Positions 42,720-62,835 of a stretch of DNA of 64,000 nucleotides are shown piece by piece. The notes beneath the pieces were generated by a model, which worked only from the letters and a program-made list of their open reading frames with translations, had not been told where the DNA came from and did not search any database. This DNA is from Thermoplasmatales archaeon (GTDB lineage: Archaea > Thermoplasmatota > Thermoplasmata > Methanomassiliicoccales > Methanomethylophilaceae), in assembly GCA_012520845.1 (NCBI GenBank), contig JAAYNL010000016.1, positions 1 to 64,000 of the forward strand, written 5' to 3'. The stretch's first letter is position 1. Every line of letters begins with the position of its first letter. Position numbers and translations under genes: made by a program.

Positions 42720-42922
42720 CTGATCCTCCTCAGGCACCGACGATTGGTTGCATCCCATTTATGGTTATCTGATTAAGAATGCCATGTTTGGTAGGAGACA
42801 CGATATCGAGGATTTGGCTACCAGTAAATTGGGAACGCTGGTCATTCTTTTACATGATTAATTGAATGATTATCGATGCCAGTCTCAAAAATAAATATAT
42901 ACCAAATATATTATCTATATGT

Positions 42923-42941
42923 ATTGGATATAATTTCCAAT
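42923..42941. promoter_or_regulatory. 19-bp palindromic operator, site 1 (binding protein/CbiZ unit)
   Basis: ATTGGATATAATTTCCAAT, an inverted repeat of ATTGG/CCAAT with 9 bases between and near-perfect internal symmetry. It follows an AT-rich TATA region (about 42905-42912) and ends 12 bases before the ATG at 42954. Confidence 0.75.
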
Positions 42942-42953
42942 AGGGGAATGAAA

Positions 42954-45469: not shown

Positions 45470-46504
45470 ATGAAACAGAAAAACAAGGCCGTCTACCCCT
45501 TTTCAGCAATCGTGGGACAGGAAAACATGAAGGAGGCCCTGATTCTCAACACCGTGAACCCCTCCATCGGCGGGGTCCTCATACGCGGAGAGAAAGGGAC
45601 CGCCAAATCCACCGCCGTGAGGTCCCTCGCAGAGCTGCTGCCGGACAGGTTCGTGATCGATGGGTGCCCCTGCGGCTGCGCCCACGGTTCCCTGGAACTG
45701 TGCCCAGAATGCGAGGAACGGGTTTCGACTGGGAAAGATGGGGGAACGTATGTCCCTATGAGGGTGGTGGAGCTCCCCCTCGGCTCGACTGAAGACCGCG
45801 TAGCCGGCACGTTGGACATCGAGCATGCCATCAGCGAAGGGCGTAAAAAATTCGAACCGGGGATATTGGCTATGGCCAACGGCAACATCCTCTACGTCGA
45901 CGAAGTGAACCTGTTGGAGGACCACATCGTCGACCTCCTGCTCGATGCTGCCGCGATGGGGACGAATTTCATAGAGAGGGAAGGGATATCTTACACCCAT
46001 CCCTCGAGGTTTATCCTCATAGGGACGATGAACCCCGAGGAAGGCGACCTAAGACCCCAACTCCTGGACCGTTTCGGCCTCGCCGTCGACGTGGAGGCGG
46101 AACGGGACGAGGGACGCAGGACCGAGATAATACTCAGGCGCATGGAATTTGAGAAAGACCCGGAGGGTTTTAGGGAAAAATACTCGGGGGAACAGGACCG
46201 CTTGAGAAAACTGATAAACGATGCCCGCAACATCCTAAACGACGTCGTCGCGGGCGCCGATGCCGTAAAGGCGGCCGTCAGAATCTCCCTGCACTTGGGC
46301 GTCGACGGCCACAGGGCCGATTTGGCACTGATAAAAACCGCATCGGCTTACGCCGCCACGCAAGGACGCACTGCCGTGGTGCCCAAAGACGTCGCCCACG
46401 TGTCCAAACTCGTCATGCCCCACCGCATGAGGAGAAACCCATTCCAGGATTCGAATCTTGACACGAAAGAATTAGAGGAGTGGCTCGAGATGGAGATAAG
46501 GTGA
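45470..46504 (+). CDS. Mg/Co-chelatase AAA ATPase subunit, ChlI/BchI-like (copy 1)
   Basis: 344 residues. Walker [10 protein letters not shown] (about residue 40), Walker [21 protein letters not shown], and [20 protein letters not shown] match BchI/ChlI AAA+ subunits. A Cys cluster [18 protein letters not shown] (about residue 66) is present here but absent from copy 2. These ATPases form rings that drive metal insertion by a large CobN/ChlH subunit. First gene of the operon containing ChlD and CobN. Confidence 0.88.
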
Positions 46505-46509
46505 CCCAA

Positions 46510-47040
46510 ATGGAAAACAAGGATTTCAAGGACAGAAAATTGGCATTGGTGCTGGTCGACATCCAGAACAAGTTTGCATATCAGACCGAAGGGTTGTTAA
46601 ACGGCATGTCCTCGAGGTTGGGGAAGGTCAACGAAGCAATTGACCTGTTCAGGGAAACTGGCAATCCCGTCATCTTCGTATTCTTCGACGGCGACGGGCA
46701 TTGCACAATGAAAAGGGTCGAAAACCCCGATGAGCTGTTCGGCGGCCTCACCATGAAAGACGGCGACCTTAAGGTCAACAAGACCCAGATGAACTCGTTC
46801 AGGGACTCCGACCTAGCAAAGGTAATCAAAGAATGCGGGTGCGACGGCATCGTGATAGCAGGGTTGGTCGCGCAATACTGCGTCATAGCGACCTATTTCG
46901 GCGCCTTCGACCACGACATCTGCCCATATATGCTTAAAGGCGGGATCGCGGCGACGGACGAAAACAACGTAACGCACGTGGAGGCCATCTGCAAAACCGT
47001 CACCGTCGACGAAATCAAGGAGAATGTCCACTTTATCTGA
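46510..47040 (+). CDS. Isochorismatase-family cysteine hydrolase
   Basis: 176 residues. The catalytic Asp is in LALVLVDIQNKF, the Lys in LKVNKTQMNSF and the Cys in IVIAGLVAQYCVIATYFGAF, a complete isochorismatase/nicotinamidase triad. The substrate is unknown. Finding it between two ChlI-like genes is unusual; it could process a ligand released by the transport system, but that is speculative. The ATG at 46510 has AGGTGA upstream; a GTG at 46501 overlaps the preceding stop. Confidence 0.85.
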   Translation: MENKDFKDRKLALVLVDIQNKFAYQTEGLLNGMSSRLGKVNEAIDLFRETGNPVIFVFFDGDGHCTMKRVENPDELFGGLTMKDGDLKVNKTQMNSFRDSDLAKVIKECGCDGIVIAGLVAQYCVIATYFGAFDHDICPYMLKGGIAATDENNVTHVEAICKTVTVDEIKENVHFI

Positions 47041-47058
47041 GCGAACACTCATAAACCA

Positions 47059-48015
47059 ATGTGGGTGCCAGATGCCGAAAACGGGGGCAATCGTTTGAAA
47101 AACCACGCGTTTCCCTTCTCGGCGCTCGTCGGCCAGGAGGAGATGAGGGAGGCCCTTATCCTCAATGCCGTCGACCCCCGGGTCGGCGGCGTCCTTATAC
47201 GCGGGGGGAAAGGCACGGCGAAAACCACCGCGGCAAGGGCCTTAGCGGACCTGTTGCCTGAGAAAGGTGACGGAAAGAGGATGGTCGAGCTTCCGCTGGG
47301 TTCCAGCGAGGATCGCGTCGCCGGCATGCTCGATGCCGAACACGCCATCAAAACCGGAGAGATCCGGTTCGAGCCTGGGATATTGGCCAAAGCCGACGGC
47401 AACGTCCTCTATGTGGATGAGATAAACCTACTAGAGGACCGCATCGTGGACCTCCTTCTCGAAGCCTCCGCCTCGGGGGTGAACAGGGTGGAGAGGGACG
47501 GGATATCCCATGCCCACCCCTCGAGGTTTACCCTAATCGGGACTATGAATCCCGACGAAGGTGAGCTGCGCCCCCAATTCTTGGAACGTTTTGGCATGTG
47601 CGTCAACGTAGTGCAGGAAACCGACGAAGGAAAAAGGATGGAAATCGTTACCAGACGCATGGATTTCGAAAGGGACCCTGTGACGTTCCGTTCGGGATTC
47701 GATTCAGAGCAGGCGGCATTGAGGAAAAGGATTGCTGATGCGAGGAAATTGCTGTCTGGAACTTCTCCGAATCCAGGTGTCGTCCGTTCGGCAGCGAGGA
47801 TAGTTTCCCACCTTGGCGTCGAGAGCTGCAGGGCCGACGTCGCCATCGTCAGGGCGGCCCACGCACGCGCCGCCTTCTGCGGAATGGGGATACCTGCCCG
47901 GGAGGACGTGTTGCGCGCCACTCGCCTGGTGATGCCGCACAGGATCGAGACGGAGCCCTTCGACGAGGACAGGGGCCCCATGGAGGGGTTTGAGGAATGG
48001 TTCGGGACGGTTTGA
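47059..48015 (+). CDS. Mg/Co-chelatase AAA ATPase subunit, ChlI/BchI-like (copy 2)
   Basis: 318 residues. It is a paralogue of copy 1: [20 protein letters not shown], Walker [50 protein letters not shown]. The Cys cluster is missing and the loop is shorter. A TTG at 47095 with GGGGG upstream is an alternative start nearer the conserved N-terminus. It overlaps the ChlD-like gene by 19 bases. A cell with two I-subunits may assemble mixed rings or serve two chelatases. Confidence 0.85.
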
Positions 48016-49919
48016 GGAAATACACGTTCCCCTTCACAGGGATTAAGAACAACGAAACCCCCAAGAAGGCCGTTAGGTGCGCCCTTGCCTCCCCAAACGT
48101 GAAATCAATGCTCATCTGCGGTCCCGGGGGTACCGGCAAAACGGTACTTGCCGAATCGACGGGGTCCCTTGCGCCGGAGCGTAAAACCCACGTCATACCG
48201 CTTGGCGCCACCGAAGAAATGGTTTTCGGAGGGATAGACCTGGAAAAGGCCCTCGGCCGGGGGGAAAGGGTACTTTCCAGCAGCATTTTGGGCCGGGCCG
48301 ACGGCGGCATCGTCATCGCCGAGAACCTGAACCTAATGCCGGAACATCTGGCTTACAAACTTCTAAACGCGACGGAAACCGGATCCATCACCGTGGAAAG
48401 GGAGGGTATTTCGGCCACATACCATAGCGATTTCCTTCTTGTGGCTACGATGCGCCCCGACGAGGGTGCCCTTTCGGAGCATTTACTCGACCGGTTCGAC
48501 ATGTGTGTCTTCACCTCTCCCCCCAAAGACTTGGATACCAGGGCGGAGGTTGTGCAGTCCTCACTCGAGTTCCATGACGACCCGGAGGGTTTCGTTTCCC
48601 GCCATAGGAAAGAGGAGGCGGCCGAATCCAAGGCTATAGCTGAGGCGAGGGGGCGTTCGCGGTACACGTCAATCCCAGAGGGGTATTGCGCCGCGATATC
48701 GGAGGTCTGCAGCGGACTTAACGTGGCGGGGCACCGGGGCGACATCGCCGTGATGAACTGTGCCAGGGCGTTCGCCGCCCTCGACTCCAGAGACGTTGCC
48801 AACCTTGAAGATTTGAAGGATGCCGCGTCGGTGTGCCTCGAGCACAGGAGAAACGACGACGGGGCGCAGCCGGCAAAAGAGATGCCGGAGGAAGAAAACG
48901 AAGGGCCCGGGGAAGAGTCCGGGGAACCCGAGGGGAAATCACCTGGCGAATCCGGGGAAGAGTCCGGGGAACAGCAAGACGGTCCGTCCGAAAACCGTGA
49001 CCGGGAATGCAACGCGTCCGGCGACCGCCAGGAAACCCCCGACGGGGATCCGCCCCCGCCGGCTCTGGACCCGGAAGAGGAGATTTTCGGCATCGGCGAG
49101 GCGTATGAGGTAATCGATTACCTATCCAGGGACGACAGGGGTCCCGCTGGAAATCTGGGTGGCAAGCGGGCCAAGGACCGTTCCGACGGCAGGTCCGGCA
49201 GGACGATAGGGTATCGGATACCCAAGGGCCGCATCAACGACATCGCGCTATGCGCCAGCATCGTCGCCGCGGCACCCCATCAGGCATCGAGAGAGAAGGG
49301 TGGGCTGGCCATCGTCATCGAAAAAGGGGACCTGAGGGAAAGGGTGCGCGAGAGGAGGCGGGGCACCACAATCCTGTTCGTGGTCGACGGAAGCGGGTCG
49401 ATGGGCGCCCAGAAAAGGATGGTGGCCGTAAAGGGTGCTATACTCTCGATGCTCAAGGACGCGTACCAAAAGAGGGACGAAATCGGGATGGTTGTCTTCC
49501 GCATCGACCGCGCCGAGGAGATTCTGGAACCGACGAAAAGCATACTGAGGGCGTATAAAGCCCTGGAGGACGTCCCGACGGGCGGGCGGACGCCGCTAAT
49601 CCACGGGTTGTTGAAGGGGCATGAAATCCTCGGCGGGAAGGCCTCCAAGGACACCATGCCCGCGATGGTCATCCTCACGGACGGGAGATGCAACGTCTCC
49701 TTCACCCCCGGGAAGCCGCCCTTGGAAGAGATGCTTTCCACGGCGAGGGCCCTTTCCGGGACCGGAATCAAATTCATCGTGATAGACACCGAAGCCGGGA
49801 GACTGAGGTTCGGTCTCGCGCTTGACCTTTGCAGGTCCCTCGGCGGGACGTATTTGAAACTTGACGATTTGAACGCGGAACATATAGAAAAATCAGTGAG
49901 AATAGCAATTAAAGAGTGA
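47997..49919 (+). CDS. Chelatase subunit D-like protein (AAA plus VWA)
   Basis: 640 residues. An N-terminal AAA domain (GPGGTGKTV near residue 42) is followed by an acidic, Pro/Gly/Glu-rich linker (about residues 295-365) and a C-terminal VWA domain with MIDAS motif [12 protein letters not shown] near residue 460 and [11 protein letters not shown]. This is the BchD/ChlD architecture, bridging the ATPase ring to the large subunit. It overlaps the previous gene and its stop overlaps the CobN GTG alternative start. Confidence 0.9.
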
Positions 49920-49924
49920 TTTGG

Positions 49925-52900
49925 ATGAGGGTATTTGAGAACGATCCCGATGGGAAAGAGGGATCCGTCCGCATAGCGTATCTGAGCGTGATGAACAGGG
50001 ACGGCGTCCTGGTGGGGAAGGCGATGGCCGAGGCCGACGTCCCAGTCCACGTAAAGGTGGCCTGCGCCGATTCTGAAACGATTGACAGTGACGAACGCTC
50101 CTTTGTTTCCTTCATGGAGGCCGTAGCCGAGGCGGACGTGTTTTTCGTCAGACTGCACGGGGACCATTATTGGTACAGAAAATTCGACAGGATGATGGAG
50201 GTCGTTGAGAAGAACGGCGTGGATATGCTTTATGACGGGACGCTACCCGAAACCGACGCCGAATACCGCGATTATTTCAGGCACGGCGATTCCGATTACC
50301 GCCTTGTGCGCTCGTTCCTGGGGCTTGGCGGGAAAACGAACCACGACTCTCTGATGAAATGGGTCTGCAGAGAGATTCTCGGCATGGACGTGCCGGTGCC
50401 TGAGCCCGTGCTCGGGAGGACCGAGGGTATATTCGTTCAGGGGTTCGAGGAGGACCCGGACCCGAAGGAATTCTTCAAGACGCTGGATCGGGAGAAACCC
50501 ACGGTTGGCGTGATGTTCCACGCGACCACGCTTGCCAAGGAGACGACGGCCCCCGTCGAAGAGTTGATTGCGTCGGTGCGAAGGCATGGCGCAAACGTCA
50601 TTCCGGTGTTTTTCGTATCCTCGCCGGATAAAATCACGGGCAGCATCGGCGTGGAAGCCACGATTAGGAAATACATGGTTGAGGGCGGCAGATTCCTGCC
50701 GGATTCCGTGATAATGGCCGCTGGTTTTTCCCAGATCAACATGAACTCGCAGGGACGAGACGCTTCCGAGGAAGCGTACAATTTCTTCGAGGAATTCGAC
50801 GTCCCGATCATCCAGGCCGGGAGCATCCACCGCTCGGTGGAAAAGTGGGAAAAGGATATCATCGGCATGACCCAGCCGGAAATCGGCGTCAACGTAATCT
50901 GGCCGGAGTACGACGGCCAAGTGATTTCCGTCCCGCACACCTTCAGCCACATAGGCGAGGACGGCAGGATTACCGCAATAGGCGTCCGGGACAGGACCGA
51001 GAGGATCGCCTCCTTGGCCGTTTCATGGGCGGAATTGAGGAGGAAGCCCGCCTCCGATAGGAAGGTGGCGGTTATCCTGAACATGTACCCGCCGACGAAC
51101 GACAGGGTCGGCGGGGCCGCCGGCCTGGACACTTTCGAGAGCATTCGTAACTGCCTCATTGCCATGAAGGAAGCAGGTTACAAGGTTGACCGCATCCCCT
51201 CCTGCGGCAACGAGGTCGTGGATGAGGTCCTTGCCGGACTCACGAGCGACATGGAATGGGTGCCTGAAGACGAGATTGAGGGCAGGGCAATGGATTTCAT
51301 GACAATCGACGAATACCGCGTATGGTACGACGCCGTCCCCGAAAAGGCCAGGGAAGGGATGGTACGTAGCTGGGGCGACCCCCCGGGACCCATTTCCGTT
51401 CACGACGGGAAATTCATCATACCCGGCGTCATGAATGGCAACGTTTTCATCGGCACGCAGCCGAACAGGGGACAGCACGATCAGGCGGAGACGCTTTACC
51501 ACGACCCCAGAGTCGTCATGCCCCACCAATACCTCGCTTTCTACCGCTGGCTCAAATACGAATTTGAGGCGGACTGCGTGGTCCACATGGGGACCCACGG
51601 CACCCTCGAATGGCTTCCAGGGAAAGGGAACGGCCTTTCCTCCTCCTGCTACCCCGACGTGATCCTGGACACGATGCCCAATGTCTACCCGTACATCATA
51701 AACGACCCGGGCGAGGGCATGCAATGCAAGCGCCGCACGAATTCCGTCCTCATAGCGTACATGACGCCGGCGATGACCAGGGCCGGCGGGTACGAGGAAC
51801 TAGGGGAATTGGATGCCAATTTACAGGAATACCTGAATTCCAAGCGCAGCCTCCAAGAGGAGAAAAGGAAAATGCTCGCCCTGGAGATAAGACGCGCCGT
51901 CGGGAATCTGGAGATGTACAAGGAATTGGGCATCGACCCCGAATGCGGCGAGGAGGAATTCGAGAAAGGTATTGACAAGATTTACGACTACGTAGCCGAC
52001 ATCAAGGACGCGTTGATAAAGGACGGTCTCCACATACTCGGGAAGGTCCCGGACGACGAAAGGCTGAAAGAGATGGTCTACAGCCTATGCCGCCTCAGGA
52101 ACGGAAGCGTGCCATCGCTAAGGGGAGCCGTTGCCACCGCCATGGGTTTGGACCTGGACGCTTTGCTCGACAGCCCCTCCGCATTCCACGAAGAGAAGGG
52201 TGTGACGTACGGCACCCTCCTAGACAGGGTCGACGGAGGGTTCGAAGACCTCATAAGGGAGATGCACGCGGTCAGTTACGACCTGGAAAGATCTCTGGGG
52301 GCGGCGACTTCCATGTTCGGAAAAGTCCCCGGGGACATGGAAATGTCCATCGGCTACGTTTGCGACCACATCCACCCATCGATAATGAGGATAACCGACG
52401 AGATGAGGTATTTCCTGCAGGGGAACGCAGGGGGGTACGTTCCGCCGGGCCCCTCCGGTTCCCCAACGAGGGGGAACGCCCACCTCCTGCCCACAGGGAA
52501 GAACTGCTATTCCATTGACCCGGACGCCATACCTTCGTCCGCCAGCTGGGAAATCGGGAAGAAGATGGCTGACGGCATGATAGAGCGTTACGTGGAGGAT
52601 AACGGGGCGTACCCGGAAAGCGTGGGCATCGTCCTGTGGGCGACGGACACCATGAAAACAGGCGGCGACGACATTGCGTATATACTGTACCTGATGGGGA
52701 TGAGACCCATTTGGGGTTCGGCCGGCGGCCGCGTCGTCGGGACCGAGGTCATCCCAATCGATGAATTAGGAAGACCCAGGATAGACGTGACCGTCAGGAT
52801 TTCCGGCATGTTCAGGGATTCGTTCCCCGCCCTTTCCGATATGCTCGTGGAAGCCGCCGACACCGTCGCCGGCCTCGATGAATCCGAGGAGGACAATTTC

Positions 52901-53722
52901 TACAAAAAACACCTGAGGGAGGACGTCGCCGAGATGATCAAAGGGGGCATGTCCCCGGCTGAGGCCGTCGAAATGGCCGGCATCCGGGTGTTCGGAGACC
53001 CACCGGGACAGCACGGGAACGGGGTTTCCGTGCTGATAGAGTCGTCAAAATGGGATACCATCGACCAAATCGCGGAAACGTACGCAACCTGGGGCTCCTA
53101 CGCCTACGGCGGAAAGTGGAAGGGCGAAAAGGTGCCCGTCGCATTCAAGCGCAGGATGGCCACTATGGAAGTCACCGTCAAAAACCACAACGACAGGGAA
53201 TTCGATTTGTTGGACATTGACGACGACTACGACTCCCTTGGCGGGATGAATGCCGCAGTGAGGGTGTTCGGCGGGAAAACCCCGTATTCCTTCATGGGCG
53301 ACTCTTCCGACCCGGACCGTCTGAAGGCGAGGACCTTGGAAGAGGAGACCGCGTACGTCATGAGGAGCAGGGTCCTGAACCCCATATGGGTGGAGGGGCT
53401 GAAAGAGCACGGGTACAGGGGCGCGATGGAACTAGCCAAGCTGGCCGAGTACATGCTGGGCTGGTCCGCAACCTCCGACAGCATCGAGGATTGGATGTTC
53501 CAGGCGGTTACCGAGAAGATGGTCTTCGACGAGGAAACGCGGCATTGGGTCAACGAAAACAACCCCGCCGCCATGAAGGAAATGATCGAGGACCTGTTGG
53601 AAGCCATCGACAGGGGATTGTGGGACGCCGACGAAGAAACGAAGAGGGAATTGGAGGAACTCTACCTGGAATACGAGGGATTGATGGAGGACGCCGGGGG
53701 GAAAAGGGTCGCGTCCGGGTAA
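49925..53722 (+). CDS. cobN: Cobaltochelatase large subunit CobN-like
   Basis: 1265 residues, full length for CobN/ChlH. Conserved patches are GTQPNRGQHDQAETLYHDPR, VVHMGTHGTLEWLPGKGNGL, GYVPPGPSGSPTRGNAHLLP, PTGKNCYSIDPDAIPSSASW and FGDPPGQHGNGV. It binds a tetrapyrrole and inserts metal with ATPase help from ChlI/ChlD-like partners encoded upstream in the same operon. Cobalt is the likely metal because of the neighbouring cbiZ and btuCD. Start: ATG 49925 rather than GTG 49916. No other corrin-ring synthesis gene is in the window. Confidence 0.92.
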   Translation: MRVFENDPDGKEGSVRIAYLSVMNRDGVLVGKAMAEADVPVHVKVACADSETIDSDERSFVSFMEAVAEADVFFVRLHGDHYWYRKFDRMMEVVEKNGVDMLYDGTLPETDAEYRDYFRHGDSDYRLVRSFLGLGGKTNHDSLMKWVCREILGMDVPVPEPVLGRTEGIFVQGFEEDPDPKEFFKTLDREKPTVGVMFHATTLAKETTAPVEELIASVRRHGANVIPVFFVSSPDKITGSIGVEATIRKYMVEGGRFLPDSVIMAAGFSQINMNSQGRDASEEAYNFFEEFDVPIIQAGSIHRSVEKWEKDIIGMTQPEIGVNVIWPEYDGQVISVPHTFSHIGEDGRITAIGVRDRTERIASLAVSWAELRRKPASDRKVAVILNMYPPTNDRVGGAAGLDTFESIRNCLIAMKEAGYKVDRIPSCGNEVVDEVLAGLTSDMEWVPEDEIEGRAMDFMTIDEYRVWYDAVPEKAREGMVRSWGDPPGPISVHDGKFIIPGVMNGNVFIGTQPNRGQHDQAETLYHDPRVVMPHQYLAFYRWLKYEFEADCVVHMGTHGTLEWLPGKGNGLSSSCYPDVILDTMPNVYPYIINDPGEGMQCKRRTNSVLIAYMTPAMTRAGGYEELGELDANLQEYLNSKRSLQEEKRKMLALEIRRAVGNLEMYKELGIDPECGEEEFEKGIDKIYDYVADIKDALIKDGLHILGKVPDDERLKEMVYSLCRLRNGSVPSLRGAVATAMGLDLDALLDSPSAFHEEKGVTYGTLLDRVDGGFEDLIREMHAVSYDLERSLGAATSMFGKVPGDMEMSIGYVCDHIHPSIMRITDEMRYFLQGNAGGYVPPGPSGSPTRGNAHLLPTGKNCYSIDPDAIPSSASWEIGKKMADGMIERYVEDNGAYPESVGIVLWATDTMKTGGDDIAYILYLMGMRPIWGSAGGRVVGTEVIPIDELGRPRIDVTVRISGMFRDSFPALSDMLVEAADTVAGLDESEEDNFYKKHLREDVAEMIKGGMSPAEAVEMAGIRVFGDPPGQHGNGVSVLIESSKWDTIDQIAETYATWGSYAYGGKWKGEKVPVAFKRRMATMEVTVKNHNDREFDLLDIDDDYDSLGGMNAAVRVFGGKTPYSFMGDSSDPDRLKARTLEEETAYVMRSRVLNPIWVEGLKEHGYRGAMELAKLAEYMLGWSATSDSIEDWMFQAVTEKMVFDEETRHWVNENNPAAMKEMIEDLLEAIDRGLWDADEETKRELEELYLEYEGLMEDAGGKRVASG

Positions 53723-53816: not shown

Positions 53817-53904
53817 GGTGAGGAGTTGGCAGTAACCTCCAACGAATTCGTCGCCCCAGCCCCCGGCGGGACTGGATTGGCCGTTGAACGGAGGTCTGAT
53901 TAAG

Positions 53905-55011
53905 GTGCCGCAATCGGATACGAAGGCATTGGAAGCGGAAAAAAAATTCTCCGAACTGAAAAATAAAGAGGAATTCAGGCGAAAGCACGCAAAAACGAAA
54001 CTGTTCATAATATTGGTCGGCGGCACGCTGGCACTGGCGGTGACGTACATCTTCTCCCTTACCATGGGCATATTCCCGCTGACCTTCGCCGAGGCACTGC
54101 GGGGGGTCTGCAACATCGTCTTCAATTGGGGCCCCTCTGACACGAACATGGGTGAGAAAATCATCTATTACCTGAGGATGCCGCGTTCGATTTGCGCGAT
54201 TTGCGTCGGTGCGGGGCTGGCCGTCGCCGGTGCCGTGATGCAGGCACTTATCAAAAACCCGCTAGTGGATCCTTTCATCACAGGGGTGTCGTCCGGTGCG
54301 TCATTCGGGGTGGTGGCCATCACGCTAGGCGGTTTCGCTTCCGGGGTTATGGCGGGATTCACGATCCCGATTGCCGCGATAATTGGGGCGATAGCCGCAT
54401 TCTCCGTCACAATGTTCGTCGCGGAAATGGCCGGCGGAAAGGCAATGAGCTACGTGCTGGCCGGCGTGATAATATCCACAGGCCTTTCCTCGGCCATCAC
54501 CCTGATGATATATTTCAACGTTAAGGATTACCACATGATCATGCGGTGGATGTTCGGATCGTTCACCGACCTGTCCTGGAACAGCGCGTGCATAATATTC
54601 CTGGGAACCTTGATCCCGATGGCAATCGCCTTCTTGTTTTCCAAAAAACTCAACGTGATGCTGCTGGGCGAGGAACAGGCGATGTACCTAGGAATCGACG
54701 TAAGGACCCTCAAACGTGGCCTGATGGTACTGGTCGCCGTGCTTGCGGCTTTCTGCGTGGCGTATTGCGGCGTGATAGGCTTCGTCGGCCTAATCATCCC
54801 CCACCTATGCAGGATGCTGATTGGCGGGGACCATAGGCTGCTGATACCCTCCTCGGCGGTCGTCGGCGGGTTCGTGCTGTTGGTCGCCGACATATTCTGC
54901 AAAACCGCCGCAGCGCCATCGGAACTGCCGATCGGGGCCGTCGTAGCGGTCCTCGGAGTGCCGTTCTTCCTCATGCTCATGGTGAAGGAGGGGAAGAGAT
55001 ATGCTATGTGA
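53905..55011 (+). CDS. btuC: FecCD/BtuC family ABC permease
   Basis: 368 residues. A charged cytoplasmic N-terminus (about 35 residues) precedes about nine to ten membrane helices. Signatures are RMPRSICAICVGAGLAVAGA, QALIKNPLVDPFITGVSSGA, MRWMFGSFTDLSWN and GLIIPHLCRMLIGGDHRLL, the BtuD-contact loop. It imports corrinoid or a metal chelate. A GTG at 53905 with GGAGGT 9 bases upstream is chosen over the TTG at 53884. It overlaps btuD by 11 bases. Confidence 0.92.
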   Translation: MPQSDTKALEAEKKFSELKNKEEFRRKHAKTKLFIILVGGTLALAVTYIFSLTMGIFPLTFAEALRGVCNIVFNWGPSDTNMGEKIIYYLRMPRSICAICVGAGLAVAGAVMQALIKNPLVDPFITGVSSGASFGVVAITLGGFASGVMAGFTIPIAAIIGAIAAFSVTMFVAEMAGGKAMSYVLAGVIISTGLSSAITLMIYFNVKDYHMIMRWMFGSFTDLSWNSACIIFLGTLIPMAIAFLFSKKLNVMLLGEEQAMYLGIDVRTLKRGLMVLVAVLAAFCVAYCGVIGFVGLIIPHLCRMLIGGDHRLLIPSSAVVGGFVLLVADIFCKTAAAPSELPIGAVVAVLGVPFFLMLMVKEGKRYAM

Positions 55012-55822
55012 CGCGCGCGCCCAGGGCGGTCGGTCGACGAGCGTCTCGCCGGAAACCGTGCTGAGAGTCCACAACCTCGTGTTCGGGTATACCGAGAAAA
55101 ACACCCTCGAAGGCGTGGACATCGATGCGAAAAAAGGCGAATTCGTCGCACTTGTAGGGCCGAACGGCTCCGGCAAAACGACTATGATGCGCTGCATCAA
55201 TAAAATACTTAGACAGAGGGAAGGGACCGTCGAGATAACGGGGAAAGACACGAAGGGGCTGACCCTTGACGAAATTTCGAGGTTGTGCACAACGGTCCCC
55301 GCGACCACCCCCTTGGGTTTTTCCCTCTCAACCAAAGAATTCGTCACATTGGGCAGATCACCGTACGCCAAGACCTGGATGTGGGAATCCGATGAGGATG
55401 TCGAAATCGTGGAAAAAGCGATGTGGGACTTCGGGATCCTCCATTTTTCCGAACGGAGACTGGACGAACTCAGCAGCGGGGAACGTGCCAGGGCATTGTT
55501 GGCCAAGGGCGTCGTACAGCAACCGAAGCTGATGATGGTCGACGAGCCCAGCGCGCACCTCGACATAAAATACAAAATCCAGGTGATGCAGATGCTGAAA
55601 AGTCTGGCGGAAAACGGGATCACAGTCCTGATGGCGTCCCACGACATCAACCTCGTGACGGCATACTGCGACAAGGTCCTCCTACTCCACGGCGGGAGGA
55701 TCGTGGATTACGGTACGCCCGCCGAGGTCGTCACCGAGGAATCCATGAAGAAGGTGTTCGACATAGACGTCAGGATAATCCGCGAGAGCGGCGTCCCATA
55801 TATACTGCCGTCGGTGACCTGA
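55001..55822 (+). CDS. btuD: ABC transporter ATP-binding protein, BtuD/FepC-like
   Basis: 273 residues. Walker A is GPNGSGKTTM (near residue 52), the signature is ELSSGERARALLAKG, Walker B is LMMVDEPSAHLD and the switch His is in MASHDINL. It drives the permease encoded just upstream (11-base overlap). The gene is followed by tRNA-Leu. Confidence 0.92.
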   Translation: MLCDARAQGGRSTSVSPETVLRVHNLVFGYTEKNTLEGVDIDAKKGEFVALVGPNGSGKTTMMRCINKILRQREGTVEITGKDTKGLTLDEISRLCTTVPATTPLGFSLSTKEFVTLGRSPYAKTWMWESDEDVEIVEKAMWDFGILHFSERRLDELSSGERARALLAKGVVQQPKLMMVDEPSAHLDIKYKIQVMQMLKSLAENGITVLMASHDINLVTAYCDKVLLLHGGRIVDYGTPAEVVTEESMKKVFDIDVRIIRESGVPYILPSVT

Positions 55823-55881: not shown

Positions 55882-55965
55882 GTGGGGGTAGCCAAGCCCG
55901 GCCAAAGGCGCGGGACTTAGGATCCCGTCTTTAGCGGTTCGAGGGTTCAAATCCCTTCCCCCACA
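55882..55965 (+). tRNA. tRNA-Leu (anticodon UAG)
   Basis: 84 nt, class II with a long variable arm. The acceptor stem GTGGGGG pairs with CCCCCAC; the D-arm is TAGCCAAGCCCGGCCAAAGG; the anticodon stem-loop CGGGA-CTTAGGA-TCCCG reads UAG; the T-arm contains GGTTCAAATCC. CCA is not encoded. A TATA-like AATATAAA at about 55849-55856 gives standard spacing. It decodes CUA/CUG leucine codons. It sits between two corrinoid-transport operons without apparent link. Confidence 0.95.
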
Positions 55966-56032
55966 CCTTTTGGATATATCGTGATACTGAATGTAATAAT
56001 CAATATATAGACGGCCGACGGTTTACATTGGC

Positions 56033-56051
56033 GTTGGATGAAGCATCCAAC
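56033..56051. promoter_or_regulatory. 19-bp palindromic operator, site 4 (second transport operon)
   Basis: GTTGGATGAAGCATCCAAC, 8-bp perfect arms, the same 19-bp geometry as sites 1-3 with outer A/T replaced by G/C. It follows a TATATA box (about 56003-56009) and ends just before the GGAGGAG ribosome site of the next gene. Confidence 0.72.
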
Positions 56052-56063
56052 GGAGGAGAGAAA

Positions 56064-56624
56064 ATGGATAGCAAAGTAATAGCGTTAGCTATCGTCGGCG
56101 TCCTCATCGGCGCCGGTGTTGGCATAGGTGCTGGCTACGCTGTGTGGAACAGCGATGACGCAGAGGGAGAGACTTACTACTTCTACCTCCATTTTGACAC
56201 GGACAACGAAAGAAACGGTTGGTACGAAGGAAATGGGTCCGATGCCCTTGACGGTTTCGACAAAGCCATGAAAAAGGCTGGATTCGTTTGGACGCGCTCA
56301 AGTCTTGGATATGTTGGGAAAATCGACAACGCGGGTTCATGGGCCCATTACCAATATCTGTACGAAGCAACCGATGCGTTGGCAGCGGATTCCAGCGTCC
56401 TGGGCGTCAACGAAGGCGAGTTCTTTGAATATTCCAACGGATGGAAATCCATGACTGGATATGATTGGGCCGATGCGAATGACAAAACGATGAAGCTGAA
56501 ACAGTTCAACAGCAACATCTACTTCCTCTCGGTCTACGTACAGACTGGACCTTCGACATGGGAGGCAAAGAACCCCACTACCACAGACGCATGGAAGAAC
56601 TCGGGTCCTTTCGCCGCGGCCTGA
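56064..56624 (+). CDS. Membrane-anchored secreted protein (possible DUF4430-like ligand domain)
   Basis: 186 residues. MDSKVIALAIVGVLIGAGVG is a membrane anchor nearly identical to that of the binding protein at 42954. The exported part (YYFYLHFDTDNERNGWYEGN, ALDGFDKAMKKAGF, YSNGWKSMTGYDW) looks like one compact domain that recalls DUF4430/transcobalamin-like modules, a tentative match. First gene of an operon with a binding protein, the propeller-permease and an ATPase, so it is probably an extra extracellular ligand-capture component. Confidence 0.6.
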   Translation: MDSKVIALAIVGVLIGAGVGIGAGYAVWNSDDAEGETYYFYLHFDTDNERNGWYEGNGSDALDGFDKAMKKAGFVWTRSSLGYVGKIDNAGSWAHYQYLYEATDALAADSSVLGVNEGEFFEYSNGWKSMTGYDWADANDKTMKLKQFNSNIYFLSVYVQTGPSTWEAKNPTTTDAWKNSGPFAAA

Positions 56625-56658
56625 AGAACGAAACCGCTTGAAAAACGCGGTGGGGCGA

Positions 56659-57999
56659 ATGGGGTCATCTGCAAAAAAGACGCTGCTGACAGCCGTCATC
56701 GTGTTGATGGGTCCCGTCCTGGCAGTATCCCTCGGCGGAGGATCCCCGCCCACCGCATACCAATCCCAAGGTATTGCCATCGACTTCGGTGACAGAGACG
56801 TTTCCTGGACCGACGTCAACTTGAGGTATTTCGGAGACCCCATCAAAGCCCTCGGACGCGCCTGCGACGAATGGGGATTCACGTCTACCATCAATGACGA
56901 CACGGTCAGTGAAATAAACGGCTTCATAAATTCCGAAACGGCCGAATGGGGCCTCTGGATTATCGAACAGGGTTCCATGGGATGGAAAAGGATCGGCAGC
57001 CCATATCCCAACATCAAGGATTATACCATAGCCGCTTGGGCATATTGCGGCGACGGGGAGACCCCCTCTGTCGCAATTGACCAGTACGGCAGGAGCATAT
57101 ACGGTTACCCGCAGGCAAGAAGGGTAGTCACCCTTTCTCCGTCGCTGACCGAAATGATTGGCGCTCTCAACGCCGAAAACACGCTTGTGGGCATGGATGC
57201 GTACAGCGACTACCCACAGAAAATCGTCGATTTGAAAAACAAGGGTGACATCGCCATCGTCGGTGGCTACGTAAACCCGAATTTTGAGGCCATCATGAAA
57301 ACCAATCCAGATTTGGTGTTCTGCGACGGCGGCCAGTACTCCCACTATGAAATGGCGGAACGAATCAGGAAAGCGTCTGTGAACGCCATAGTCCTTTATG
57401 CCGGCGAAAGCATCGAAACCATACAGGACAATATCTTCATAATGGGGACCGCGATGGGCTTCGACCTAAGGTCTCTGACAGTCTTGAAAGAACTTGGGAT
57501 TGCGGAATCTGAAATCATCGAAAAAATCAGCGGCGGGGATTACAAACCATCGAAGGCGATGGTTGCCCTCGAACCCGTAAAATCGCCCTGGGTTTCCGGT
57601 TCCTACACATATTTCAACGACGTGCTCAACGTTTTGATGGTCGAGAATGCGTTTTCGGGTGAATACGGGTGGATGCAGGTAAACTCCGAAAGCATCCCAA
57701 AAGCCAATCCGAACGTCATAATAGTCATCGCCGATTCATATAGACCGACCGAAACCGATTACCAGCACATGCTCGGTCAACTTTCCCGAGAATGGAAAAG
57801 CACCGACGCGTATGAGAACGGCAGGATATACATGTTCACGGACGACTTAGGAATATTGGCCAGCAGACCAGGTCCCAGATACGCCCAGTTGATGGAGATT
57901 CTCTATTTGGCGTTTAGCGCCTCTCCGAACCTCCCCATGTACATCGGGGACAATTACTTCGATTATCTAGAAGTGACGAAACGGATGGGGTATGATTAA
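56659..57999 (+). CDS. Two-domain substrate-binding protein, BtuF-like with N-terminal extra domain
   Basis: 446 residues. A signal or anchor helix (about residues 5-27) is followed by a ~110-residue module (GIAIDFGDRDVSWTDVNLRY ... WGLWIIEQGSMGWKRIG ... AAWAYCGDGETP) and, from about residue 154, a FepB/BtuF-type binding domain (RRVVTLSPSLTEMIGALNAE, MKTNPDLVFCDGG). The N-terminal module is also at the start of the next protein. ATG 56659 with GGTGGGG upstream is preferred to a TTG at 56638. Ligand probably a corrinoid or related chelate. Confidence 0.78.
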   Translation: MGSSAKKTLLTAVIVLMGPVLAVSLGGGSPPTAYQSQGIAIDFGDRDVSWTDVNLRYFGDPIKALGRACDEWGFTSTINDDTVSEINGFINSETAEWGLWIIEQGSMGWKRIGSPYPNIKDYTIAAWAYCGDGETPSVAIDQYGRSIYGYPQARRVVTLSPSLTEMIGALNAENTLVGMDAYSDYPQKIVDLKNKGDIAIVGGYVNPNFEAIMKTNPDLVFCDGGQYSHYEMAERIRKASVNAIVLYAGESIETIQDNIFIMGTAMGFDLRSLTVLKELGIAESEIIEKISGGDYKPSKAMVALEPVKSPWVSGSYTYFNDVLNVLMVENAFSGEYGWMQVNSESIPKANPNVIIVIADSYRPTETDYQHMLGQLSREWKSTDAYENGRIYMFTDDLGILASRPGPRYAQLMEILYLAFSASPNLPMYIGDNYFDYLEVTKRMGYD

Positions 58000-60934
58000 T
58001 TTGAAACCCAGGGTAAGCAAGATTCTGACATTGGCGGCCGTTACCCTATTCCTTCTAGTTTCCATCCATTCGCCAGAGGTTGACGGCGACAATTCGACCA
58101 GCGACGTACTTTTTGATTTAGGAAACGGGAACACCGAATGGCTAACCGCCGCCCATGGCGCAACTTATCGCGATGTTTTGAAAAACACCGCCCTGTCCAA
58201 CGGCATACCTTACGACGATTCTGGATCACTTACCGTCTACGGTATCGGCGAAACCGTAATCGGCGGCGTGGACAACGGCGGGAGCCTCTTCACGAGTGGT
58301 ACGACCGGTAAAAAATCCACTTCTCTTTGGACTGCATACAGATGGCACTCCGGGGCGTGGGAAAAAATCGTCGACCTCAACGATGCTCACGGCTCCGAAC
58401 ACCTTGCCCTTGCATTCTACCCAGAAGGGTGTATACCTCCAGAGACGCCTGACCGCCGCGGTTCCTGGACTATGTACAGGGGCAACTCCGCCCAAGACGG
58501 ACATCAGGACGGCGTCAAAATCGGGAACGGCGATGCCAAGGTAGAATGGGAATTCACGAGGGGCGGCATGAGCGGCGTTTACGCCGGCGTCCTCCACGTC
58601 GGCAACTACGTCTTTGCTAAATTCGGCGCCGACAAGAACCTTGACGGCGCCCTAATCTGCTACGAGCTCGACGGTTCCAACAATCCCGAGACAATGAAAC
58701 GTTGGGAGTTCAATTTCGAAGGCCAGTTGGGATACGAAACGGCCACGCCCGTCATTGTCGGCCAATACATATTTGTACAGACCTCTGACGGGCTCATACA
58801 CAGGATTCCATGGGAGGCGGGCCCAGGGGTCGATGACGCGAACGTCAAAACACTATCCGAAAAAATACCCCAAGCCACTGGGGCGCCGGTTGAGGGCGCC
58901 AAGTTCGGCCCAGGCATAGGGTCGATGGTCTACGATACCGGTTGCCTATATTTCTTAGCCAACAACGGCATGGTCTATTGTTTCGACATCGACCTGGAGC
59001 ACATCTGGTCGCGGCAAATGGGGGGGCACAACTACTACGTCTCCCCGACCATTTACGACGATTACGTGTTCACTGGCGCCAAGGATGGATGTCTATACAT
59101 CATGGATAAGAAGACCGGCAAGAATTTTTTAGACGAGCCTGAAGAGGTTTTCGTTCAGAACATCTCTGGCAAAAAATTCGGAAACGTTTCCGCACCCGCC
59201 GTGTTCAAAGACGGCGATGTGTACACCCTCATGTTCACCGTTTCCGACGGCATGGGGATGAGTTGCAAGGTGGGTGGCTTGGCAATATATGAATTCAATC
59301 CCAACTCGTCTGAGCTCACCAAGAAATACCTTGACACTGAAGATTACGGACCCATCTCCACTTACGTGCTGCCTTTGGATGTTCAGGGGTTCAAAGGTGT
59401 CATAGTTGTGGCCACCAAGGGCGTTTTCAAAATCGATACCGAGGGCAACAAGGTGTTGCTCAATGAATCCCTCTATTCCGTGAAGGCCCCGCCTCTGTTG
59501 GTAAACGGCAAATCGGTATACATGGCCAGCTATGCACCGTCAAAGCCTTTGTACGAGATGGATTTCAACGGAAACATACTATCCATGTGGGTCCCGGATG
59601 TGGTTAACAAGAATTATTGCATGTCCTCCCCAATTTTTGTCGAAGGCACATTGATTTTTCCGAGCGACACCACCTTGGCGGGAATCGGTGGCACCTTCCC
59701 GGAATACGTGCCCCCCGAACCCGTGCAAGAAATGCCCGTTTGGATGAAATCGCTCATCACCCTGTTGGCAATAATCGCCATACTAACAATGGTTTACGTC
59801 GTGATGAGGTTCGGCAAGGGTATTGAAAAACCGTTCGCCCACATTAGCGAACGGATATCGTATTACCTCAAAAGCGATGAACCCGGCCACAACGTCCGCA
59901 GCAAACGCAGACTCTTTACCGTTTTGATTGCGGGCATCGTACTGACGCTGGCACTGTTCCTGACATGCCTCTGCGTCGGCCCGACGGCCACGTTCTCCTT
60001 ACCGGAAATGCTTTCATCGCTGAAATCCGCCGTTTCCAAAGGCGGAAAAATGCTTTCCTACAACGAGCTCATGGTCTACGAGTCCCGGTTGCCGAGGACC
60101 ATGGCCGCGTTGGCGGTCGGAATCGGGCTGTCCATCGCGGGCAGCGTTTACCAGGCGATCATCCGCAACCCGCTCGTCGACCCATACATCATGGGCGTCT
60201 CGGCCGGCGCGGGGACCGCCGCCGTCGCCGTGATAGCCTTCAATTTCACCTTCTTCGGGCTTTTCGCCCCCCATTCGATATACGTCACGGCGTTCGCCGC
60301 CATCGTCGGAGGCATCGCCGCCTTCGCGGCCACGATGTTCATCGCCGAGAAGGCGGGCGGGTCGTCGCTCAACTACGTCCTGGCCGGCGTAATCATCGGA
60401 TTGGCGTTCTCCGCCATCCAGACGTTGATGCTGTCCTTCGCGGGGCACAGGGTGAGCAACGCCCTTTCCTGGCTGTTCGGTTCCTTCGCCAACGTGACGT
60501 GGAACCAGGTTTGGTTGATAGTGGCGCCCGCTTTGACGCTGGCGATCGCGCCGCTGCTGTGGGCAAAGGAACTGAATCTGGTGCTGCTCGGGGAGGACCA
60601 GGCGCAGCAGATGGGTTTGGACGTGCGCAACTTCAACCGCTGGATGCTGATACTGGCGTCCGTGCTCACCTCGATCTGCGTGGCGTTCGTGGGCATCATC
60701 GGCTTCGTCGGCCTCGTCGTGCCGCACCTGTGCCGCATGATGCTCGGGGGCGACCACAGGCTCGTGCTGCCCGCGTCGATCGTGTTCGGCGGCGCCCTCA
60801 TGATGGCCGCCGACCTCGTGGCCAGGATGGCCTACGCCGGGCTCGAGTTGCCCGTGGGTGCCATAACGACGATAATAGGCGTGCCCGTGTTCGCCTACCT
60901 GCTGATAAAAAGGGGGAATCTGTATGAGGGATGA
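57992..60934 (+). CDS. Fusion: secreted beta-propeller receptor region plus BtuC-type permease
   Basis: 980 residues. Signal peptide about 1-32; an N-terminal module (about 35-150; DLGNGNTEWLTAAHGATYRD) like that of the upstream binding protein; a PQQ/quinoprotein-type beta-propeller (about 155-575, beginning GSWTMYRGNSAQDG, with repeats such as GLIHRIPW, GMVYCFDIDLEHIW and GCLYIMDKKTG); a membrane helix near 585-610; then a full FecCD/BtuC permease (about 638-980; SRLPRTMAALAVGIGLSIAG, AIIRNPLVDPYIMGVSAGAG, GLVVPHLCRMMLGGDHRLVL). It overlaps the binding-protein stop by 8 bases and the ATPase start by 11. I know no such permease fusion. The extracellular part probably docks ligand or binding protein. 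Confidence 0.85.
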   Translation: MINLKPRVSKILTLAAVTLFLLVSIHSPEVDGDNSTSDVLFDLGNGNTEWLTAAHGATYRDVLKNTALSNGIPYDDSGSLTVYGIGETVIGGVDNGGSLFTSGTTGKKSTSLWTAYRWHSGAWEKIVDLNDAHGSEHLALAFYPEGCIPPETPDRRGSWTMYRGNSAQDGHQDGVKIGNGDAKVEWEFTRGGMSGVYAGVLHVGNYVFAKFGADKNLDGALICYELDGSNNPETMKRWEFNFEGQLGYETATPVIVGQYIFVQTSDGLIHRIPWEAGPGVDDANVKTLSEKIPQATGAPVEGAKFGPGIGSMVYDTGCLYFLANNGMVYCFDIDLEHIWSRQMGGHNYYVSPTIYDDYVFTGAKDGCLYIMDKKTGKNFLDEPEEVFVQNISGKKFGNVSAPAVFKDGDVYTLMFTVSDGMGMSCKVGGLAIYEFNPNSSELTKKYLDTEDYGPISTYVLPLDVQGFKGVIVVATKGVFKIDTEGNKVLLNESLYSVKAPPLLVNGKSVYMASYAPSKPLYEMDFNGNILSMWVPDVVNKNYCMSSPIFVEGTLIFPSDTTLAGIGGTFPEYVPPEPVQEMPVWMKSLITLLAIIAILTMVYVVMRFGKGIEKPFAHISERISYYLKSDEPGHNVRSKRRLFTVLIAGIVLTLALFLTCLCVGPTATFSLPEMLSSLKSAVSKGGKMLSYNELMVYESRLPRTMAALAVGIGLSIAGSVYQAIIRNPLVDPYIMGVSAGAGTAAVAVIAFNFTFFGLFAPHSIYVTAFAAIVGGIAAFAATMFIAEKAGGSSLNYVLAGVIIGLAFSAIQTLMLSFAGHRVSNALSWLFGSFANVTWNQVWLIVAPALTLAIAPLLWAKELNLVLLGEDQAQQMGLDVRNFNRWMLILASVLTSICVAFVGIIGFVGLVVPHLCRMMLGGDHRLVLPASIVFGGALMMAADLVARMAYAGLELPVGAITTIIGVPVFAYLLIKRGNLYEG

Positions 60935-61751
60935 GACGCCCCTGCTCGAGCTGAGGGGTTTGAACAAGGTATACGACAACGGCTTCCACGCCGTGAAGGA
61001 CGTCTCGTTCAAGATCGAGCCTGGCATGCTCATCGGCCTCATCGGCCCGAACGGCTGCGGGAAGAGCACGATGATGAAGTGCATAAACAGACTGCACAAA
61101 AGCACGTCCGGCGACGTCCTCGTCGACGGCGTCTCGGTCATGGATAAAAAACCCGGGGAAATCGCGAAGGTCATCGCCAGCGTCCCCGCGGAGATGAAGG
61201 CCAGTTTCGGCCTCACCGTGTTCGAGACGGTCATGCTTGGCAGATACCCGTACCTGAAGAACATCTGGTGGGAGACCGAGCAGGACGAGAGCATGGTGCT
61301 GGATACCTTGAAAAAATTCGGCGTGTACCACCTCAGGGACAGACCGCTGAACATGCTCTCCTCCGGCGAGAGGCAAAGGGCGTTGATCGCCAAGGCCTAC
61401 GTCCAGGAGCCGAGGCTGATGCTCGTGGACGAGCCGACGTCCCACCTGGACATGCGCTACAAGCTCGAAGTGATGGAGTACCTCTACGCCATGGTCAAGA
61501 CGGACATGTCGATACTCGTGGCGGAGCACGACATCTCCCTCATGGCGAGGTACTGCGACCTATGCATCATCATGAAGGCCGGGGAAATCGTGGCCGTCGG
61601 GCCTCCCAAGGAGGTCATCACCTCGGAACTGATAGAGAGCGTCTATGGCGTCAGCGCCACCGTCGGCTACGACCACGAGGGCGAGCTGTTCGTCCTGCCG
61701 AAGAGATTCAGGGCGGAGGCGGACTCGGCCAGGGACGATGGTTTCCTCTGA
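60924..61751 (+). CDS. btuD: ABC transporter ATP-binding protein, BtuD/FepC-like (second)
   Basis: 275 residues. Walker A GPNGCGKSTMM (near residue 41), signature MLSSGERQRALIAKAYV, Walker B LMLVDEPTSHLDMR, switch His in VAEHDISLM. It energises the propeller-permease encoded directly upstream. Last gene of the second transport operon; the C-terminal ~20 residues are a charged tail. Confidence 0.92.
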   Translation: MRDETPLLELRGLNKVYDNGFHAVKDVSFKIEPGMLIGLIGPNGCGKSTMMKCINRLHKSTSGDVLVDGVSVMDKKPGEIAKVIASVPAEMKASFGLTVFETVMLGRYPYLKNIWWETEQDESMVLDTLKKFGVYHLRDRPLNMLSSGERQRALIAKAYVQEPRLMLVDEPTSHLDMRYKLEVMEYLYAMVKTDMSILVAEHDISLMARYCDLCIIMKAGEIVAVGPPKEVITSELIESVYGVSATVGYDHEGELFVLPKRFRAEADSARDDGFL

Positions 61752-61786: not shown

Positions 61787-62257
61787 TCAGACGCCGTGAC
61801 TGTGGTCATGGTGATGGTGGCCGCCGCAGTCGCAGTCCTCGCCGTGGGACGGGTCGTCGCACCCGTGGTGGTGATGGTGGTGGTGATCCCCCTCCAACTC
61901 CAGGAACGCCCCCGAATCCTCCAGGGCGTGGAAAATCTCGTGCTCCAGTTCGTGGGCGTCGATATCGGTCGCGGCGACCATGAACGCGAAGTCGGCGGAC
62001 CTCCTCGGGGAAAGTATGCCGTGGCGCTCCGGGCCCGTGCCGAGGTCGACGAGATTGACGGTGATGCCTTCCCCGCCGTCGGACACGCACATCTTCGCGT
62101 GGCCGAGGAACATCCCGGCCTCGGCCTCGATCCACTCGGCAACCGCCAAAAGGGCCTTGTCCAACCTCATCTGGGTGTCGCTGTTGTAGTTGAGCACTTT
62201 GCCCTTGACGCCGGCGGCGACGCCGCCGGCCATGTCCGCCGATTCCGATTTCCTCAT
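61787..62257 (-). CDS. His-rich metal-binding protein coupled to a CobW-type GTPase
   Basis: 156 residues. The body (MRLDKALLAVAEWIEAEAGM ... FAFMVAATDIDAHELEHEIF) has no family I can name. The C-terminus is a metal-sponge tail: seven consecutive His, HGCDDPSHGEDCDCGGHHHH and DHSHGV. The start ATG 62257 overlaps the stop of the GTPase gene by 4 bases. It is likely a metal store or metallochaperone delivering Ni, Co or Zn with the GTPase. The long upstream in-frame extension is antisense to the GTPase and rejected. Confidence 0.7.
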   Translation of the reverse strand: MRKSESADMAGGVAAGVKGKVLNYNSDTQMRLDKALLAVAEWIEAEAGMFLGHAKMCVSDGGEGITVNLVDLGTGPERHGILSPRRSADFAFMVAATDIDAHELEHEIFHALEDSGAFLELEGDHHHHHHHGCDDPSHGEDCDCGGHHHHDHSHGV

Positions 62258-62835
62258 GATGCCAACTCCTCCATCACCCGCTCCATGCCAGCCCCGGTCT
62301 TCAGGGATATCGGGATGACGGGTACGTCGCCGAGGGATTCCCTCAGCTCCTCGGCCGCGGCCTCGCACCCCCCTTCGTCGGCGGCGTCGCATTTGTTGAT
62401 GAAGACCACGTCGGAACCCGCCAGCTGCTCAAGGTAGAAACGGCGTTTCTTCTTCATGAAAACCTTATGCCTTTTGATATCGGCGAGACCGACGACCTTG
62501 ACGGACGACGCGAACGGGGCAACCGTCTCCCTGACCTTGGAAGACAAGGCAAGACCGGTGGGTTCGATGATAAGGAGGTCCGGGGCGACCTCGTCTCGGA
62601 TGCTGGTAAGCGCCTTCCTCAGGTCGCCTACCAGGGAACAGCATATGCAGCCGTTGGGCAGGACGGTTGCCGACAAACCCTTGGATTCGAACGTCGCGCC
62701 GTCAACGCCGATAGAGCCTACGTCGTTGACGAGTATCGCCACCTTCAGGCCCTTGTCCATGTTGGCCGTGGCGACGTCCATTATGAGCGTAGTCTTCCCG
62801 CTCCCGAGGAATCCCCCGATTATGTAAACCTCCAT
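62254..62835 (-). CDS. CobW/HypB/UreG-type GTPase
   Basis: 193 residues. P-loop GGFLGSGKTTL at the N-terminus, metal site NGCICCSL (CxCC, near residue 63), switch region IIEPTGLA and NKCD guanine-specificity motif. This is the G3E GTPase core without the CobW C-terminal domain, so it is shorter than classical CobW. Such GTPases insert or deliver Zn, Co or Ni. It pairs with the His-rich gene downstream and neighbours the chelatase/corrinoid region, so cobalt handling is plausible but unproven. Confidence 0.85.
   Translation of the reverse strand: MEVYIIGGFLGSGKTTLIMDVATANMDKGLKVAILVNDVGSIGVDGATFESKGLSATVLPNGCICCSLVGDLRKALTSIRDEVAPDLLIIEPTGLALSSKVRETVAPFASSVKVVGLADIKRHKVFMKKKRRFYLEQLAGSDVVFINKCDAADEGGCEAAAEELRESLGDVPVIPISLKTGAGMERVMEELAS

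Follow-up and report, generated by a model that had tools for sequence, protein, structure and literature searches.

A BtuC-type permease fused to an extracellular SLBB-propeller in the Methanomassiliicoccales, a candidate corrinoid importer

What would an ATP-binding cassette (ABC) importer do with a large extracellular domain built into its own permease? The question is raised by a gene at positions 57992-60934 (+) of the window, the whole 64,000-nucleotide stretch of contig JAAYNL010000016.1 (assembly GCA_012520845.1) analyzed here, which comes from a member of the Methanomethylophilaceae in the archaeal order Methanomassiliicoccales. The gene is one uninterrupted ATG-TGA frame of 980 codons, and its 980-amino-acid product consists, in order, of a signal peptide, an SLBB module, a beta-propeller of the PQQ/BamB type, one transmembrane helix, a linker, and a complete FecCD/BtuC permease. 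We consider it fairly likely that this protein forms the channel of an ABC importer for corrinoids (cobamide or cobinamide) and has an extracellular receptor covalently attached, in which the SLBB-propeller captures scarce corrinoids.

The signal peptide spans residues 1 to ~25 (57992-58066), where the N terminus is hydrophobic and AlphaFold2 predicts a helix (residues 8-23) flanked by stretches of low confidence. The N-terminal SLBB module, of the transcobalamin-C/DUF4430-like kind (residues 37-152; 58100-58447), was recognized by profile-profile comparison and modeled with a predicted local distance difference test score (pLDDT) of ~95. The propeller (residues 153-572; 58448-59707) was assigned from AlphaFold2, Foldseek, and weak Pfam matches at residues ~250-378 (PQQ_2, E value of 2e-5; Beta-prop_ACSF4, E value of 6e-6). 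AlphaFold2 also delimits the transmembrane helix (residues 583-608; 59738-59815), which has an equivalent at the C terminus of propeller proteins encoded by separate genes, and a cytoplasmic linker with an amphipathic helix (residues 609-639; 59816-59908), which matches the leader of the split-form permease in length and position. The permease itself (residues 640-980; 59909-60934) is complete, with profile positions 1-311 of the 311 in PF01032 (FecCD) matched at residues 651-973 (E value of 4e-81) and Escherichia coli BtuC (1l7v) matched with an E value of 1e-45.

Modeled with AlphaFold2 from an alignment with 54 relatives, residues 37-572 (module and propeller) reached a pLDDT of 95.4 and a predicted template modeling score (pTM) of 0.94. 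Foldseek comparison of this ectodomain model with the PDB returned BamB, YxaL, tetrathionate hydrolase, and the designed propeller Cake8, with TM-scores by target of up to 0.78, and the number of sequence repeats suggests that the propeller probably has eight blades. The full-length model (pLDDT of 84, pTM of 0.63) comprised the signal helix (8-23), the module (38-143), propeller strands (183-566), the transmembrane helix (583-608), a cytoplasmic helix (614-627), and the permease (633-978). A preliminary description of this DNA had proposed the same layout with an ATPase gene next to it, on which frame, Pfam, and AlphaFold2 now agree; it had named a propeller fold between residues 150 and 580 as the feature for structure prediction to examine, and both the confident model and the propellers among the Foldseek matches confirm that fold. 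Its idea of a fused surface receptor is likewise supported.

Because tetrathionate hydrolase and methanol dehydrogenases were among the Foldseek matches, the propeller could be an extracellular enzyme or a quinoprotein-like electron carrier, with corrinoids awaiting import, or the molecules that carry them, as its targets. However, these enzymes share a generic PQQ-type fold at 12-13% identity, PF01011 (the PQQ dehydrogenase model) was not matched by the fusion at E values of up to 1, and pqqE is reported as absent from the order (PMC10804542). A PQQ enzyme was rejected as first choice on the last two grounds, and we regard an enzymatic or electron-carrying role as very improbable.

The same domain order was sought, as the preliminary description had suggested, in 147 genomes of the order, 102 of which belong to the window's family; genome counts were made partly by eye, and the count of fusions combines several profile searches. 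Matches covering propeller and permease together were obtained in at least 68 of the 102 genomes. Full-length homologs with 38-57% identity occur throughout the family, the single-contig genomes G030, G071, G075, and G077 being among the carriers, and elsewhere in the order a fused propeller-permease match was found in G016, among the matches listed. In a 390-genome sample of the phylum, all listed matches from outside the order start at model position 529 or later, i.e., they cover the permease only. The fusion is real, old, and limited to the order among the genomes searched, which form an archaeal sample (bacteria lay outside the search). The preliminary description had also envisaged that relatives might carry the two parts as separate genes and that the frame in the window might be an assembly join. 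Separate adjacent genes were found, in a paralogous operon; an assembly join was not, and it is ruled out by conservation of the fusion across the family, single-contig assemblies included. The split forms do lend something to the idea of an artifact of assembly or annotation, but with dozens of genomes encoding the full-length fusion, several of them single-contig, and with AlphaFold2 folding the whole protein, its probability is negligible.

In the paralogous operon, the SLBB-bearing substrate-binding protein (SBP), the SLBB-propeller with its own C-terminal transmembrane helix, the permease, and the ATPase are encoded by separate genes, and the window's genome (G000) carries such an operon as well (L105, G000:C20). 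This SBP-propeller-permease operon (L105, 2-12738) is flanked by genes for a 1169-amino-acid protein without a Pfam match and a 1289-amino-acid BspA-type leucine-rich-repeat protein, and split operons elsewhere (L075-L079) are flanked by similar giant genes. Permeases associated with a propeller, whether fused or split, make up a single clade of the permease tree; the fusions of G016 (L054) and G043 (L078) fall within the split group, apart from the main fused group, and fusion or fission has therefore happened more than once. The L078 frame stays open at the position of the TGA that ends the propeller gene of its split sister L079. Among 13 split loci, 11 (L055, L059, L060, L075-L077, and L079-L083) have the permease in frame after a single TGA, which probably reflects tight spacing of the two genes. 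TGA accounts for ~90% of stops in split-locus genes, and so there is no case for programmed stop read-through. Joining of the propeller and permease genes, and sometimes their re-separation, may have come about through loss or gain of a stop codon.

Other arrangements of the same parts were also recovered. In G008 it is the SLBB-SBP, not the permease, that carries the propeller, and L106:484-3618 holds an alternative fusion, adjoining cbiB and cbiZ, in which one frame encodes a propeller, PKD-like domains, transmembrane segments, and an SLBB-SBP. At no fewer than nine loci, a second permease without a propeller directly follows the fusion and is nested within the fused clade (100/99), which suggests that fused and plain permeases may form heterodimers with one propeller per transporter. 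Fusions of ~1200 amino acids (L058, L072, L073, and L074) have ~300 extra residues between propeller and transmembrane helix that by eye resemble two more SLBB-like modules. A 1372-amino-acid frame at L039/L065 was rejected as a triple fusion, as the end of this frame merely runs across the second permease gene, which is read in a different frame.

The 5' end of the fusion gene overlaps the SBP gene (stop codon at 57997-57999) and its 3' end overlaps the ATPase gene (start at 60924), and the three genes are therefore tightly coupled. The SBP (56638-57999, +) combines an N-terminal SLBB module with Peripla_BP_2 (PF01497, E value of 1e-22), and the ATPase (60924-61751, +) is of the BtuD type (PF00005, E value of 5e-31), with corrinoid/F420-0-type models as its best NCBIfam matches. 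They are preceded by ORF198 (56028-56624, +), a small membrane-anchored protein found by profile match to be SLBB-like, homologs of which precede the SBP gene in other genomes. The SBP glutamates that align with the docking glutamates of BtuF are retained in 54 of 55 (E217) and 50 of 55 (E351) sequences, and among 44 permeases R699 and R702 are invariant and position 945 is always R or K. The corresponding residues of E. coli BtuC have an established docking role. Retention of both the glutamates and the arginines indicates, therefore, that a separate binding protein still docks on the permease; to judge from these residues, the propeller is an addition to the binding protein and not a replacement for it. 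At L068:11061-15821 the SBP gene encodes ~1150 extra N-terminal residues, by eye SLBB-like and with immunoglobulin/carboxypeptidase-regulatory-like repeats, and at L067:9952-12576 one 874-amino-acid frame holds two complete SLBB-SBP units in tandem.

SLBB modules thus occur in three consecutive gene products, ORF198, the SBP, and the fusion. To place them, profiles of the fusion module, the SBP module, the module of propellers encoded in energy-coupling factor (ECF) operons, DUF4430 (PF14478), and ORF198 were compared with hhalign. The fusion module matched the ECF-operon propeller module with a probability of 98.5% and the SBP module with one of 97.5% (its controls scored below 1%), the ECF-propeller module matched DUF4430 at 97%, and all pairs among these four sets scored 95-99% except the fusion module versus DUF4430; reversed and unrelated controls stayed below 4%. 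ORF198 scored 94% with the fusion module, 85% with the SBP module, 83% with DUF4430, and 14% with the ECF-propeller set. Taken singly, none of the aligned fusion modules passes the PF14478 cut-off, and 3 of 45 SBP modules match this model with E values of ~0.05. In the AlphaFold2 model of residues 37-572, the module has strands at 2-6 and 12-16, a helix at 23-33, and further strands, an order that would fit a beta-grasp. By these profile comparisons, the fusion module is judged to be homologous to the transcobalamin-like SLBB clade (PF14478) at a level below Pfam membership. DUF4430 proteins searched by sequence against the PDB gave no match to transcobalamin, and the link between the two therefore rests on the Pfam family and on the work of Burroughs et al. 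2007 (PMC1796856). Those authors described a transcobalamin-like SLBB clade that combines with beta-propellers, shares its operon with a second SLBB protein, and has CbiO/CbiQ as neighbors, and they predicted that such operons scavenge B12 or its precursors.

Operons of this kind were found in relatives of the window's organism. The SLBB-propeller profile A1 matches over positions 2-530 in G003, G005, G006, G132, G135, and G157, and within the order three families (f3, f5, and f6), together with the outside genome G157, have the SLBB-propeller gene followed by DUF4430, a CbiQ-type T component, and a double ECF ATPase. No substrate-specificity (S) component was recognized in these operons (L107-L119), and they contain no SBP. 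The window operon has no CbiQ-type T component or ECF ATPase and has BtuC and BtuD instead. The receptor in the window is thus, on sequence grounds, a homolog of an ECF importer component that has become part of a BtuCD importer. The ECF form is the more widely distributed, which argues for the direction from ECF to BtuCD; the SLBB-propeller of an ECF-type importer would have been recruited beside a BtuCD-type importer, and the genes would then have been joined. We put forward, as a tentative but serious possibility, that a corrinoid-receptor cassette of SLBB module and propeller moved between two importer architectures that are unrelated, ECF and BtuCD, was welded to BtuC more than once, and now acts as a high-affinity receptor that forms, with the docking SBP, a two-receptor relay at one channel.

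The same observations bear on what the propeller does. It is possible that the importer takes up corrinoids but that the propeller binds no ligand and is mainly a docking or retention platform, which, as the cell lacks a periplasm, would keep the SLBB-SBP and the small SLBB protein close to the permease. The SLBB modules of the three consecutive products could pair with each other, the propeller of G008 shows that it can be tethered to either partner, and beta-propellers often serve as protein-binding platforms. The propeller protein also occurs in ECF operons without an SBP, however, and SBP docking is therefore not its original role. We consider such a platform rather unlikely as its main function.

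The case for a corrinoid substrate comes from gene context. In several genera, the fusion operon is followed downstream by cobD (pyridoxal phosphate, PLP)-cbiB-cbiZ-cobS-cobY. By-hand comparison showed that at least 18 genomes have CbiZ and the fused gene on one contig at a distance of 3-8 kb; by chance, such adjacency is expected with a probability of ~1% for each genome of 1.5 Mb, although these genomes are not independent of each other. Where the propeller is missing, a plain BtuC occupies the corresponding place beside cbiZ, and G054 shows an intermediate arrangement, with an SLBB-SBP and no propeller. In the permease tree, the fused permeases and the cbiZ-linked plain BtuC proteins of other families form one clade (99/97). 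Because of the adjacency to cob/cbi operons and this clade, gene context points to a corrinoid as the predicted transport substrate, where the preliminary description had named no particular ligand. A TP_methylase gene near some loci was set aside as corrinoid evidence, since archaeal diphthine synthase belongs to that family.

In the window, the corrinoid genes lie upstream of the fusion operon, all on the + strand. They comprise a second BtuF-like binding protein without an SLBB module (42876-44066, assigned by reading the translated frame), the corrinoid salvage enzyme CbiZ (adenosylcobinamide amidohydrolase; 44186-45301, PF01955 with an E value of 2e-51 at 44309-44914), chelatase AAA and VWA subunits (starting at 45470, 47059, and 47997, with an isochorismatase-like gene at 46480; 45470-49919, Pfam), a CobN-type cobaltochelatase large subunit (49916-53722; PF02514, with a score that exceeds the cut-off of the cobN model TIGR02257), and an ordinary BtuCD pair. 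The permease of this companion transporter (53884-55011; PF01032, E value of 3e-84) groups with the cbiZ-linked plain BtuC proteins, and its ATPase (PF00005) is at 55001-55822. A tRNA gene (55882-55965) sits within this island, between the ordinary pair and the fusion operon. Rfam detected no cobalamin riboswitch in the window, its matches there being signal recognition particle RNA and a tRNA only. On the other side of the operon, the product of 61787-62392 (-) has a strongly histidine-rich C terminus and its gene adjoins one for a CobW-type GTPase (62254-62835); the two are a possible metal chaperone pair.

Many different chelates are handled by FecCD permeases and Peripla_BP_2 proteins, the SBP finds its best PDB match in a protein that binds iron, and the window's genome is unusually rich in BtuC-type permeases, with 22 FecCD matches in its 1.38 Mb. 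The importer could accordingly carry another bulky metal chelate (heme, a siderophore, or a nickel or cobalt complex), with the nearby corrinoid genes being coincidental. We think this very improbable, as the cobD-cbiB-cbiZ-cobS-cobY adjacency is repeated in several genera of two families, the permease falls in the cbiZ-linked BtuC clade, and the modules are transcobalamin-like.

The N terminus of BtuC is cytoplasmic, so the linker can be cytoplasmic as well while the propeller faces outward. Under the favored explanation, that of a corrinoid importer with a tethered receptor, the SLBB-propeller would sit on the cell surface next to the channel and capture corrinoids, which are scarce, the SLBB-bearing SBP, or the permease, would receive them from the propeller, the SBP would dock on the permease through the Glu-Arg contacts, and ATP-driven import would feed salvage by CbiZ, CbiB, CobS, and CobY. 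Surface capture with hand-over is favored because of two analogies: the propeller of BtuG binds B12 with femtomolar affinity and acts as a lid (PMC6143338, PMC10404256), and transcobalamin holds B12 sandwiched between its SLBB domain and a second domain (PMC1796856). Several points weigh against this explanation. Corrinoid binding by the propeller itself is proposed by analogy, and the pTM of the full-length model leaves the placement of the propeller relative to the permease unfixed. The direct hhalign score of the fusion module with DUF4430 is only moderate (65%, or 9.6% with a smaller set), and their link appears clear mainly via intermediates. The split paralogs lack linkage to cbiZ and may have another substrate, and PMC1796856 points out that many of the archaea that have SLBB proteins are themselves B12 producers, in which these proteins may serve to scavenge a different metabolite.

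Several known systems resemble the fusion in part. With the vitamin B12 importer BtuCD-F (PF01032) it shares the permease fold, the docking arginines R699 and R702, the SBP glutamates, and a co-encoded Peripla_BP_2 binding protein (56638-57999) and BtuD-type ATPase (60924-61751), but its permease is preceded by ~640 additional residues that comprise the signal peptide, SLBB module, propeller, and transmembrane helix, and its SBP has an SLBB module. The SLBB CbiQ/CbiO operons, present in sister families, likewise encode an SLBB-propeller and a further SLBB protein in an ABC transporter context; the SLBB-propeller in the window is attached to a BtuC permease, whereas PMC1796856 lists no permease fusion. 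BtuG of Bacteroides is also an extracellular propeller in a B12 import locus, with proposed capture beside the channel. However, it is a separate seven-bladed lipoprotein on the TonB-dependent barrel BtuB, whereas the fusion has another blade type and an inner-membrane ABC permease as its partner, in a group of organisms without the outer-membrane transporter BtuB; no BtuG-type Pfam model was among the fusion's matches, and BtuG was not among the 50 best Foldseek matches. Finally, GlnPQ and OpuA (PMC8025302, PMC11065425) have an extracellular receptor covalently linked to the permease, but theirs are two-lobe binding domains on Type I importers, whereas the fusion carries an SLBB-propeller on a BtuC fold and keeps a separate SBP. 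Receptor-permease fusions are therefore already known, as are SLBB-propeller proteins near ABC transporters, predicted in 2007. A 2024 survey of the Methanomassiliicoccales found BtuC to be abundant, in five clades, with btuCDF next to adhesin-like genes, and its main text makes no mention of a propeller (PMC10804542). Searches of open-access literature turned up no propeller-permease fusion of this layout, in keeping with the novelty that the preliminary description had suggested.

Methanomassiliicoccales depend on corrinoid methyltransferases, and their unusual wealth of BtuC has been reported without a structural explanation (PMC10804542). The fusion provides a concrete protein-level strategy for B12 capture in archaea that is open to testing, and the shared receptor links ECF and BtuCD importers. 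Genomes with no propeller, a separate propeller, a fused propeller, or fused and plain permeases together offer natural series in which the contribution of a tethered receptor to ABC import can be examined. For these gut-type methanogenic archaea, the propeller-bearing importer probably helps to scavenge B12 compounds.

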